Source: Spelaeicoccus albus (GTDB lineage Bacteria; Actinomycetota; Actinomycetes; Actinomycetales; Brevibacteriaceae). From it: DNA of 64,000 nt. The stretch spans positions 3,730,518 through 3,794,517 of the forward strand of contig NZ_JACBZP010000001.1 of the NCBI RefSeq assembly GCF_013409065.1. The letters are read 5' to 3'. Of this stretch, positions 39,046-42,438 are shown piece after piece. Below the pieces are notes generated by a model that worked only from the letters and a program-made list of their open reading frames with translations, was not told the origin of the DNA and made no database searches. The position numbers and the translations under genes are program-made. Every line of letters starts with the position of its first letter. The first letter of the stretch is position 1.

Positions 39046-40566
39046 TCAGTGACAGTGCCAGCCGGCATATCGATAGCAATGACACCGCCAGTGGCCGTAT
39101 CGATGTGCGGCACGGTGCGCCCGGCAGAACCACGGCGGCCCCGGGTCGGCTGTCGGGGCCGGCTCTTGGGTCGGCGGCGACTTTTGGGTCGGCGCATCCT
39201 CTCGGGTCGGCGCAGGGGTTGATTGCGTCTCGCGCGGCGCGGGCGTCGATGGAGGCGTGCTCGCGGGCGGGGTTGGGGATGCCGGGCTCGTGGTCGGTGT
39301 CGACGGCGGCGGAGTAATCGGGGTTACCGTCGGCGCCGGACTCGCCGACCGGGTCTGATCGGGAGCTCGGTTCGTCGGAGTCGCTGTCGCACCCGGGACG
39401 GTCGGGATCGGTGCCGCCGATGCGCTCACGCCCGGACGTGCGCTCTCCGGGGCGTCGTCACGTCCGTCTCCTCCGGGCCGCCCATTACCCGACGTCCGGT
39501 CGCGCTCGAATCCTCGTGTCTCCGCGTCCGGGCGGGTGGGGTACGGCCAGGTCGAAGGCGAGGTCTCCATCGAGCCGGCCATCGACTGCTGCCGAACTCC
39601 TGGCCGGGCAGCCTCGTCACCCCCGGGAAAGACAAGGCCGGCGCCGCCCGCAACGATCGACAGCCCGGCGCCGGTCGCCACGACCGCCGAGGTGTGTACG
39701 GCGACCCAGGCGCGAACCACCTTCCAGGAGGAGGCCAGCGATTCGCCCACCGCAAGGGCCGCAGCCTTCCCGATACCTCCGATCTTCGCTAGTGAAACTT
39801 CCCAGCCAACGAAGAACGGGACGAACAGCAGTACGAGCAAACCGCGATTCACGCCGAGCTCGCGTAGTTCCGCAACGACTGCCGCGCACCGCGAGCAGCT
39901 GGACAGATCACATTCCACCCGCCGGCGCGAACGCAGCGACCCACTGCCCAACACGTATTGGCTGATGTCTGCCGTCAACGATCGGCAGTCGTCTGTCGGG
40001 GCCACCGGCATGTACGCCTGCAAGTATTCCTTTTTCAGACCGATCCGTGCTCGCCTGACCAACGCGGACACGGCATTGGGAGCGATATCCAGAATCAATC
40101 CGGCTTGCGCCGGCGACAAGCCGTCCACGTCAACCAGCCACAGCACCCGCTGCCAGCGGTCGGGAAGCGCGGACAGTGCCTTTTCCGCCAAGGCCAGGTC
40201 AGAAGCTGCGATAACTGGATCGAAGAACTCAACGGGACGTGCGTGCAATTCCAGATCGCTCACGGGTATCGACCACTGCCCGGTCTTAGCGAAATCGATG
40301 TGCACGCGACGAATTGTGATTGAAAGGTAGCCGGCCAAATTTTCCGTCGGTCCCTTGCCATTTCGCAAGGCAGCAATAATTCGAACGAATGCCTCGCTGA
40401 CGATGTCGTCGACATCGCCGGAATCGTCGGCTACGCGCGATGCGATTCGACGAGCAACCGCACGGTAACGGAGAAAGATTTCGCCGATGGCCTCGACATT
40501 GCCGCCTCGCACTGATTCCAACAAACTCGAGTCGGACCATGATGCATAATATTCATGGGACAACAT
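39046..40566 (-). CDS. ECF sigma factor with membrane segments and His/Cys-rich C-terminus
   Basis: Residues 1-90 are sigma-70 region 2 (DVDDIVSEAFVRIIAAL, NLAGYLSITIRRVHIDFAK) and 125-180 region 4 (ALSALPDRWQRVLWLVDVDG, then SPAQAGLILDIAPNAVSALV). A zinc-finger-like segment follows, CDLSSCSRC (219-227), resembling the anti-sigma ZAS motif with its His replaced. Two hydrophobic segments (about 241-256 and 290-314) precede a 160-residue Pro/Thr/Ser-rich region, and the last 28 residues (479-506) contain six His and four Cys. ECF factors fused to membrane and extracellular parts are known in Actinobacteria, but I do not recognise this tail. With two helices the tail would be cytoplasmic, with one it would be outside. 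The start at 40566 is weakly supported. Confidence 0.85.
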   Translation of the reverse strand: MLSHEYYASWSDSSLLESVRGGNVEAIGEIFLRYRAVARRIASRVADDSGDVDDIVSEAFVRIIAALRNGKGPTENLAGYLSITIRRVHIDFAKTGQWSIPVSDLELHARPVEFFDPVIAASDLALAEKALSALPDRWQRVLWLVDVDGLSPAQAGLILDIAPNAVSALVRRARIGLKKEYLQAYMPVAPTDDCRSLTADISQYVLGSGSLRSRRRVECDLSSCSRCAAVVAELRELGVNRGLLVLLFVPFFVGWEVSLAKIGGIGKAAALAVGESLASSWKVVRAWVAVHTSAVVATGAGLSIVAGGAGLVFPGGDEAARPGVRQQSMAGSMETSPSTWPYPTRPDAETRGFERDRTSGNGRPGGDGRDDAPESARPGVSASAAPIPTVPGATATPTNRAPDQTRSASPAPTVTPITPPPSTPTTSPASPTPPASTPPSTPAPRETQSTPAPTREDAPTQKSPPTQEPAPTADPGPPWFCRAHRAAHRYGHWRCHCYRYAGWHCH

Positions 40567-40940
40567 ACACCTAACAATCTTGAGTGCTTGCTACCGGGCG
40601 ATTGTCGAACCGATGCTAGCACCGCCATCTCGCGGCAAGACGCGTTTCCACGCATGAGTTTCAGGTACAGTTCAATACCTTTTCGCTACCCCCGACGGTG
40701 TGCAAAATTTCGGTCACATTTTTTCAACAATTCACATTTTTTGCGTCACGATTGGCGATTAGAGCTGTCTAGGCACTGGCACATTTAGGCTGTTTGACTA
40801 TTTATGCAATCGCTGACTTCATTCCTATATCCTGTAACGTATTCGAAGTTTATGTCGGCTGTACGAAATCGGAGCCAATAATTCAGGCTCGCCGATTAAA
40901 TCGCGTCACGATTGCATCGTGCGCGGCTCTATACTGATGA

Positions 40941-41064
40941 ACGCGATAAATATTCGTTGCTCGCCACTCCCCCCATAATCGTGGGGAGCAATGGAATCGA
41001 GTTCGTGCCCCGCTGCGCGCGGAGCTAGAAGGAGCGTCGCCGGAGACCGGCGACGCTCCTTTTC
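40941..41064 (+). ncRNA. 6C-like small RNA, copy A
   Basis: The segment starts AACGCGATAAA, about 6 bases after a TATACT -10 box (40930-40935). It contains CCCCCC (40969-40974) inside a TTGCTC/GAGCAA stem, then CCCCGCTGCGCGCGG, and ends in a strong terminator (AGGAGCGTCGCCGG / CCGGCGACGCTCCT plus TTTT, 41030-41063). The order and several blocks recur in copy B at 44122. This is the layout of the actinobacterial 6C RNA class (C-rich loops then terminator). The interval 40567-40905 upstream is AT-rich and holds no gene. Confidence 0.62.
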
Positions 41065-41229
41065 GCAATGACCCTGCTAGCGTTCGATATAGCGGCCGGC
41101 AACTAGACGAGACGATCAGCGCCGCGGCGGGCGCCCATCTCACAGTGGCGATCGCAAGTTTGTGCCGGAAGTCGAGCCGGCGCTCCGTCTCGCGCACTCT
41201 GCGTCGACCGGACAGCAAGGGAGACGACT

Positions 41230-42438
41230 ATGACTTCATTGGTGACCTCCAAGGGCCTCGACCACGTCGGAGCCTCGGCCATCTCGCGCATGATGACACG
41301 AGTGAACGCGCTCAAGCGCGGCGGCGTCGACGTCGTCGGCCTGCACGTGGGCGAGCCGGATTTCGACACACCGAGCAACATCGGGGACGCCGCGATCGCG
41401 GCAATCCACGACGGCGACACCCACTATCCCCCGATGGACGGGACCCCGGCGCTCAAGGACGCGATCATCGCGAAGTACCTCCGAGCGACCGGCCTACACT
41501 TCGACAGACCCGAAGTTGCCGTGACCAACGGGGCCAAGATGATGATCTTTTGCGCCTTCTTTGCCACGCTGCGGCCCGGCGACGAGGTGATCGTGCCTGC
41601 GCCGTACTGGACGAACTACGTCGACATCGTCCGCATGATGCAGGCAGTGCCAGTAGTGGTCGATTGCCCGGCCGCGAACGGTTTCATTCTCGATCCGGCC
41701 GATCTCGACGATGCCATCAGCGACAAGACGCGTTGGCTCATGCTCAATTCTCCGGGCAATCCCTCGGGCGCCGTTTACGGGCGAGACGAGCTGAGCGCGA
41801 TTGCGGCGGTACTCGCAAAGCACCCGCACGTGTGGCTGCTCGCCGACGATATCTACGAGCACCTCGTGTACGACGATGCCGCGTACACGCCCATGCTCGG
41901 CGTCGCCCCCGAACTGCGTGAGCGTACTTTGACGATCAGCGGCGTCTCCAAGGGGTATGCCATGACGGGCTGGCGGATCGGCTGGGGCGTGGGGCCGGCC
42001 GAGCTGGTGACTGCCGCGGCCGCCGTCATCAGCCAATCGACGTCCGCGGCGAGCGGTATTTCCCAAGCCGCGGCGGTGGAAGCGCTCGAGGGACCGCAAG
42101 ACAGCGTCGCCGCGTTCGTGAGTGAATACCGGCGGCGTCGCGACCTTCTGATCGACGGGCTCGCCCGCATCCCGGGTCTGGAGTGCTCGCGGCCGGACGG
42201 CGCGTTTTATGCTTTCGTCGATGTCAGCGGTTATTTCGGCACGACGACGCCGGATGGGAACGCGATTACGTCCGACGTCGATTTCGCCGACTTCCTGCTG
42301 GACGCCGGACGGGTGGCGGTGATCCCCGGCTCCGCCTTCGGGTCCGGCACCCATGTGCGTTTGTCGTTTGCCAGCGACGAATCCGTCTTGCGTGACGCCG
42401 TCCGGCGCATTGACGAGGCGTGCGGGCAATTGCGGTGA
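41230..42438 (+). CDS. PLP-dependent aminotransferase, class I/II (aspartate/aromatic type)
   Basis: The 402-residue fold-type I enzyme has GLHVGEPDFDTP, HYPPMDGTPALKDAI, LNSPGNPSGAVYG, ADDIYEHLVYD and the PLP-lysine segment ISGVSKGYAMTGWRIGW with Lys241. The C-terminal Arg binding the substrate carboxylate lies in GTHVRLSFAS. It resembles bacterial aspartate transaminases of the PLP-aspartate family. AGGGAG lies 7 bases before the ATG. It is followed 52 bases later by an acetolactate-synthase-like gene, suggesting a joint pathway on a 2-oxo acid. Confidence 0.93.
   Translation: MTSLVTSKGLDHVGASAISRMMTRVNALKRGGVDVVGLHVGEPDFDTPSNIGDAAIAAIHDGDTHYPPMDGTPALKDAIIAKYLRATGLHFDRPEVAVTNGAKMMIFCAFFATLRPGDEVIVPAPYWTNYVDIVRMMQAVPVVVDCPAANGFILDPADLDDAISDKTRWLMLNSPGNPSGAVYGRDELSAIAAVLAKHPHVWLLADDIYEHLVYDDAAYTPMLGVAPELRERTLTISGVSKGYAMTGWRIGWGVGPAELVTAAAAVISQSTSAASGISQAAAVEALEGPQDSVAAFVSEYRRRRDLLIDGLARIPGLECSRPDGAFYAFVDVSGYFGTTTPDGNAITSDVDFADFLLDAGRVAVIPGSAFGSGTHVRLSFASDESVLRDAVRRIDEACGQLR

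Follow-up and report, generated by a model that had tools for sequence, protein, structure and literature searches.

Fusions of an ECF sigma factor to a ZAS segment and a membrane segment are a known kind of protein, represented by the groups ECF48, ECF52, and ECF53 (PMC8999054, PMC5826349). Proteolytic release of the sigma factor is the published expectation for these fused groups and has been demonstrated for IutY (PMC8999054, PMC5826349); for SCO4117 it is a proposed model (PMC5826349). A gene of this type is present in the window, the whole 64,000-nucleotide stretch of Spelaeicoccus albus DNA analysed here. By its described architecture the encoded protein appears to be ECF48/52/53-like, possessing both a ZAS segment and a membrane helix, with a ZAS that deviates in having Asp in place of His220. 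A sequence-only reading of the window had suggested that the protein could be a one-protein transmembrane sensor, an idea supported by the existence of the published fusions (PMC8999054, PMC5826349) and by selection on the Cys/His ending in this branch of the family. This conserved terminal ending, as the probable sensor, is new here, as is the pairing of a similar ending with an adhesin gene and its promoter; the architecture itself was already known. The papers searched on the fused groups make no mention of a CH..CH ending, and none of the titles listed in literature searches concerned a sigma factor that ends in this way.

Architecture of the fused sigma factor

The gene and its parts are as follows (window coordinates).

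39046..40566, minus strand: whole ORF of the fused ECF sigma factor; ATG start, TGA stop, 506 aa
40273..40476, minus strand: sigma region 2, residues 31-98; PF04542 (Sigma70_r2), E 4.7e-8, above cut-off
40045..40185, minus strand: sigma region 4, residues 128-174; PF08281 (Sigma70_r4_2), E 4.3e-7, above cut-off
39847..39990, minus strand: built-in ZAS anti-sigma segment, residues 193-240, with C194, C219, C224, and C227
39787..39843, minus strand: first hydrophobic segment, residues 242-260; contains the conserved Pro250; the weaker of the two segments in relatives
39628..39684, minus strand: predicted membrane helix, residues 295-313; hydrophobic peak matching the stronger peak of relatives
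39130..39624, minus strand: Pro/Thr/Ala/Ser stalk by composition, residues 315-479; predicted to lie outside the membrane
39049..39129, minus strand: terminal Cys/His tail by direct reading, residues 480-506, FCRAHRAAHRYGHWRCHCYRYAGWHCH
40567..41229, no strand: intergenic region upstream of the sigma gene; the divergent aminotransferase gene begins at 41230

The description as an ECF sigma factor with regions 2 and 4 holds, both Pfam domains scoring above cut-off. TIGR02937 is likewise above cut-off, and the protein has these two regions only, without region 3. Nothing else in it matches Pfam at E up to 10. AlphaFold models residues 1-287 with a mean pLDDT of 83.5 as sigma2, sigma4, and a helical anti-sigma segment, the ZAS having confident predicted helices at 195-206, 211-223, and 225-240. 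Region 2 matches region 2 of Escherichia coli sigmaE (Z 13.6, rmsd 2.3, 90 aligned) and region 4 matches that of Mycobacterium tuberculosis SigL (Z 11.8, rmsd 3.0, 77 aligned); these comparisons aligned mainly the sigma domains, and the absence of an anti-sigma match among them carries no weight.

The CxxC segment had been called ZAS-like, and the alignment bears this out, with C224 and C227 and the upstream C194 matching the ligand positions of 74 relatives. Across the 75 aligned sequences C194 and C224 are invariant and C227 is present in 74; zf-HC2 is above cut-off in the relatives L027, L032, and L062. The zinc-ligand His found in 74 of the 75 sequences is Asp220 in the window protein, adjoined by Cys219 (~39907-39912). 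Cys194 is the first cysteine of the protein, and the four Cys of the segment may together hold zinc.

Membrane helices after the ZAS were judged by hydrophobicity alone. The reading's "one or two" helices correspond to two hydrophobic segments, 242-260 and 295-313, which are about equally hydrophobic in the window protein taken alone; in the relatives listed the second is stronger. Given the weaker first segment of the relatives, its proline (conserved in 74 of 75 sequences), and the net positive charge of the loop between the two segments, it is most likely that a single helix spans the membrane, with the sigma domain inside and the tail outside. Segment 242-260 is then probably a fourth anti-sigma helix rather than a membrane helix. 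The stalk, earlier put at about 160 residues, comprises 165, of which 38 are Pro and 25 are Thr. Its pLDDT is low throughout the full-length AlphaFold model, as in a disordered stretch; that model (mean pLDDT 53.8) is uninformative on the tail.

The terminal Cys/His ending and its distribution

The potential ligands of the tail are C481, H484, H488, H492, C495, H496, C497, H504, C505, and H506, so that the six His and four Cys counted by the earlier reading are exactly those present in the last 26 residues. The tail ends CH-x8-CH and carries an additional upstream copy of the unit (HRYGHWRCH and YRYAGWHCH), which accounts for the number of ligands. It is apparently an enlarged, duplicated version of a shorter ending found in Brevibacterium. 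All 11 Brevibacterium sequences of alignment A2 end CH-x7-CH or CH-x8-CH with the last His terminal, and overall about a dozen Brevibacterium species have this ending exactly at the C-terminus. The Trp/Gly between the Cys-His pairs are also conserved. The proposed ten-ligand cluster thus survives in part: the four-residue ending (Cys-His, Cys-His) appears to be the conserved property, and the set of ten is not conserved. In the Brevibacterium tails the codons for Cys and His vary (TGC/TGT, CAC/CAT) and the residues stay constant, which argues that the tail is both translated and under selection.

A search of 396 genomes of the order with the 11-residue tail motif followed by a stop codon returned four matches that end these sigma ORFs. 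Other stop-coupled matches were judged coincidental, namely L057, which is amine-oxidase-like and ends CHSEGGSGACH, and L058 and L059, which are likely antisense frames; the remaining matches to the 11-residue motif have TGG where the stop is expected. Across the 396 genomes, then, the motif with its stop seems essentially confined to these sigma factors. The S. albus genome has three copies of a looser form of the motif, one of them in the window gene, versus six of a reversed control. It is not rare by itself, and the case for the tail therefore rests on conservation.

An alignment was needed to recover the family, as a scan of genome contigs with the single full-length protein found no relative. 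The alignment-based search with a sigma-ZAS profile covered 297 genomes of the order and had matches in 109 of them, most falling in long open frames; Brevibacterium is, by named records, the main genus among the nearest relatives. C-terminal parts are highly variable among the roughly 90 members read, ranging over Ig-like domains (in at least one), long multi-Cys ectodomains, and bare stalks. Two members, L118 6313-7932 (G282) and L175 8689-10521 (G301), end after a Pro/Thr stalk in C-x9-C plus one residue (CIIDLLGIKVCL and CLIDLLGVRVCI, respectively). The fused sigma factor genes of L062 4905-9251 (Sanguibacter inulinus), L113, L136, L150, and L171 adjoin genes for LPXTG or SpaA/DUF11 surface proteins.

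The comparison of homologues that the earlier reading had called for gives a divided answer. The Brevibacterium paralogues L009, L032, and L047 retain the sigma regions, ZAS, membrane segment, and stalk and lack the cluster; the tail-bearing clade keeps it. Another paralogue set is without both the ZAS cysteines and the tail. The window protein lies on a long branch and its placement in the family tree is not settled. AU tests do not reject a clade that unites it with the Brevibacterium tail proteins (p-AU 0.377) and weakly reject the same clade once the tail-less Brevibacterium paralogues are added (p-AU 0.028). A single origin of the tail is allowed by these trees. In B. renqingii (L065 4866-6672; also L030 and G044) a frameshift within the stalk interrupts the sigma gene, and the CH tail lies in another frame; either phase variation of the repetitive stalk or a sequencing error may be responsible.

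Neighbouring genes in Brevibacterium and S. albus

In all nine non-casei Brevibacterium genomes with a tail-bearing sigma factor, the sigma gene adjoins a divergent adhesin gene.

~2.3-4.9 kb of L061, L064, and L067-L070 (1.3-4.5 kb in L066), minus strand: VWA/SpaA/LPXTG adhesin gene, divergent from the tail-bearing sigma gene

The adhesin contains a SpaA prealbumin-like domain and an LPXTG-type end. Its VWA domain is above cut-off in two of the four proteins scored, and the others whose N-terminus was read show a MIDAS-like start, DLSNS. Between the two genes, oriented toward the adhesin, is the sequence CTCGCGAAC-N17-GGTCT, which we take to be an ECF promoter layout. When 60 genomes of the family were scanned for CGCGAAC-N17-GGTCTSA, it was found at the sigma/adhesin locus in 9/9 non-casei tail-bearing genomes; the other matches are scattered and chance-like. 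These nine genomes all have an adhesin orthologue of at least 76% identity, as does G027, in which the contig breaks off immediately upstream of the adhesin gene. In L065 the promoter is present and the adhesin frame is cut short. The B. casei-type members keep the tail and have neither the adjacent adhesin nor the promoter motif.

A related arrangement is found in G037 (L181 8482-14389), where a distant fused sigma factor has a Cys-pair tail ending CSWAPQLQCQVGEN. Its gene diverges from a pair resembling a small pilus operon, a related VWA gene and then one for an LPLTG protein. On the basis of adjacency, the shared promoter motif, the presence of adhesin orthologues in the same genomes, and the pairing in G037, the tail-bearing sigma factor of non-casei Brevibacterium very probably controls the adjacent adhesin. 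The neighbouring adhesin and promoter point to control of surface proteins over metal homeostasis. None of the titles listed in literature searches dealt with sigma control of Brevibacterium adhesins.

The surroundings of the window gene are of another kind. On one side is a convergent gene of LacI type and on the other a divergent aminotransferase gene, both named from sequence, and the intergenic region 40567..41229 contains neither an adhesin gene nor a copy of the Brevibacterium promoter motif. In the S. albus genome neither a SpaA domain nor a match to the Brevibacterium adhesin was found, and the only clear LPXTG protein, at ~674.8 kb, is without the promoter motif. The sole copy of the motif in this genome falls within a coding frame and was put down to chance. 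With no adhesin neighbour, SpaA domain, or adhesin match, and the only motif copy in a coding frame, the adhesin link is not transferable to the window.

Function of the tail and comparison with described systems

Among 76 non-redundant members of the family, 49 have Cys beyond the membrane helix, in even number in 46 and in odd number in three; the Cys number of the cytoplasmic parts is mostly odd. Because the rows are related, the binomial p of 7e-11 overstates the excess of even numbers; its direction is nonetheless clear. A short two-Cys loop without His closes three other members (CIIDLLGIKVCL, CLIDLLGVRVCI, and CSWAPQLQC). Judging from these sequences, the terminal Cys pair is the common feature and the His are confined to the Brevibacteriaceae branch. 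The even ectodomain numbers and the terminal Cys pair of relatives without His make a disulfide-closed loop more likely than a metal site at the tail, though a plain disulfide loop gives no account of the His that follows each Cys. A metal-binding patch, as the sequence-only reading had it, is accordingly possible and not favoured. Such an extracytoplasmic site for Cu, Zn, or Ni would be built of the paired Cys-His, with binding or loss of the metal triggering sigma release. It would suit the conservation of both pairs at the extreme end of tail-bearing relatives and the packing of ten potential ligands into 26 residues of the window protein. Metal-sensing Cys-rich sigma tails are known from CorE and CorE2 (PMC8999054) and from OrbS (PMC9023288). 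We nevertheless consider a metal site, the strongest competing reading, unlikely, given that the 46:3 ratio of even to odd suits disulfides, that the tails of G037, L118, and L175 have Cys without His, and that the gene linked to the tail in Brevibacterium encodes an adhesin and not a metal-handling protein.

Intact tail-bearing relatives have no residue beyond the last His, as would fit a C-terminal tag for a PDZ-type or tail-specific extracytoplasmic protease whose first cleavage is set by exposure or shielding of the tag; the carboxyl-terminal protease Prc processes the fused sigma/anti-sigma protein IutY (PMC8999054). A tag of this kind leaves the paired Cys unexplained, and we regard it as quite improbable. 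The conserved Cys pair and the Cys numbers of the family ectodomains, which fit disulfide formation, would also be expected of a thiol/disulfide switch responding to extracellular oxidants or reductants. For a plain switch, however, the conserved Trp/Gly and His would be superfluous, the exterior of these cells is already oxidising, and the linked gene is an adhesin rather than a redox gene; this makes a redox role very improbable. Slighter still is the chance that both hydrophobic segments span the membrane and return the stalk and tail to the cytoplasm, the tail acting like the Cys-rich domain of CorE. The near-equal hydrophobicity of the segments in the window protein alone would allow it, but the stronger second segment of the relatives, the proline conserved in the first, and the even ectodomain Cys numbers oppose it, and the net positive intervening loop argues against an outside location.

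We propose that the window protein is a self-inhibited, membrane-anchored ECF sigma factor acting as a wall-spanning one-protein surface sensor whose sigma domain would be freed by proteolysis, a reading to which we give about an even chance. The fused zinc anti-sigma segment would hold the sigma domain in the cytoplasm, and beyond a single membrane helix a disordered stalk would have the length needed to span the cell wall. At the cell surface the tip of the stalk would display a small Cys/His loop closed by a disulfide, or probably by two in the window protein, from its four Cys. Stepwise proteolysis would be set off when this surface knob is bound, cleaved, or capped, and the freed sigma domain would transcribe genes for surface proteins. 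More tentatively, and at somewhat short of even chances, these proteins may form an undescribed branch of fused ECF sigma factors in which a Cys-His/Cys-His mini-loop on a wall-spanning stalk is the whole sensor and each Brevibacterium copy drives one neighbouring wall-anchored adhesin, a one-protein, one-target switch. The system would be a minimal case of surface sensing by fused transmembrane sigma factors, with a sensor of about a dozen residues that is therefore testable by point mutation. The named probable target and promoter in Brevibacterium would make the release expected of ECF48/52/53-type proteins directly testable, and would tie fused sigma factors to the control of sortase-anchored surface proteins.

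Among described systems, CorE and CorE2 (ECF238, formerly ECF44) and OrbS likewise have a Cys-containing C-terminal part, which is metal-sensing there. The CXC in the sigma2-sigma4 linker of CorE-like proteins is absent from the window protein, and whereas their Cys-rich domain is a direct cytoplasmic extension, in the window protein a predicted membrane helix and the 165-residue stalk precede the tail. IutY of Pseudomonas putida (ECF243) also combines a sigma factor and a membrane anti-sigma factor in one proteolytically released protein, but belongs to an iron-siderophore cell-surface signalling system, and no such partner is seen for the window protein. ECF48 and ECF53 have in Actinobacteria a C-terminal ZAS-like fusion and one or two membrane helices, as does the window protein (PMC8999054). 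SCO4117 of Streptomyces coelicolor (ECF52) likewise unites a sigma domain with a zinc finger, a membrane segment, and a proline-rich stretch; its end is a carbohydrate-binding module (PMC5826349), in contrast to the short Cys/His tail of the window protein, in which no domain is recognised.
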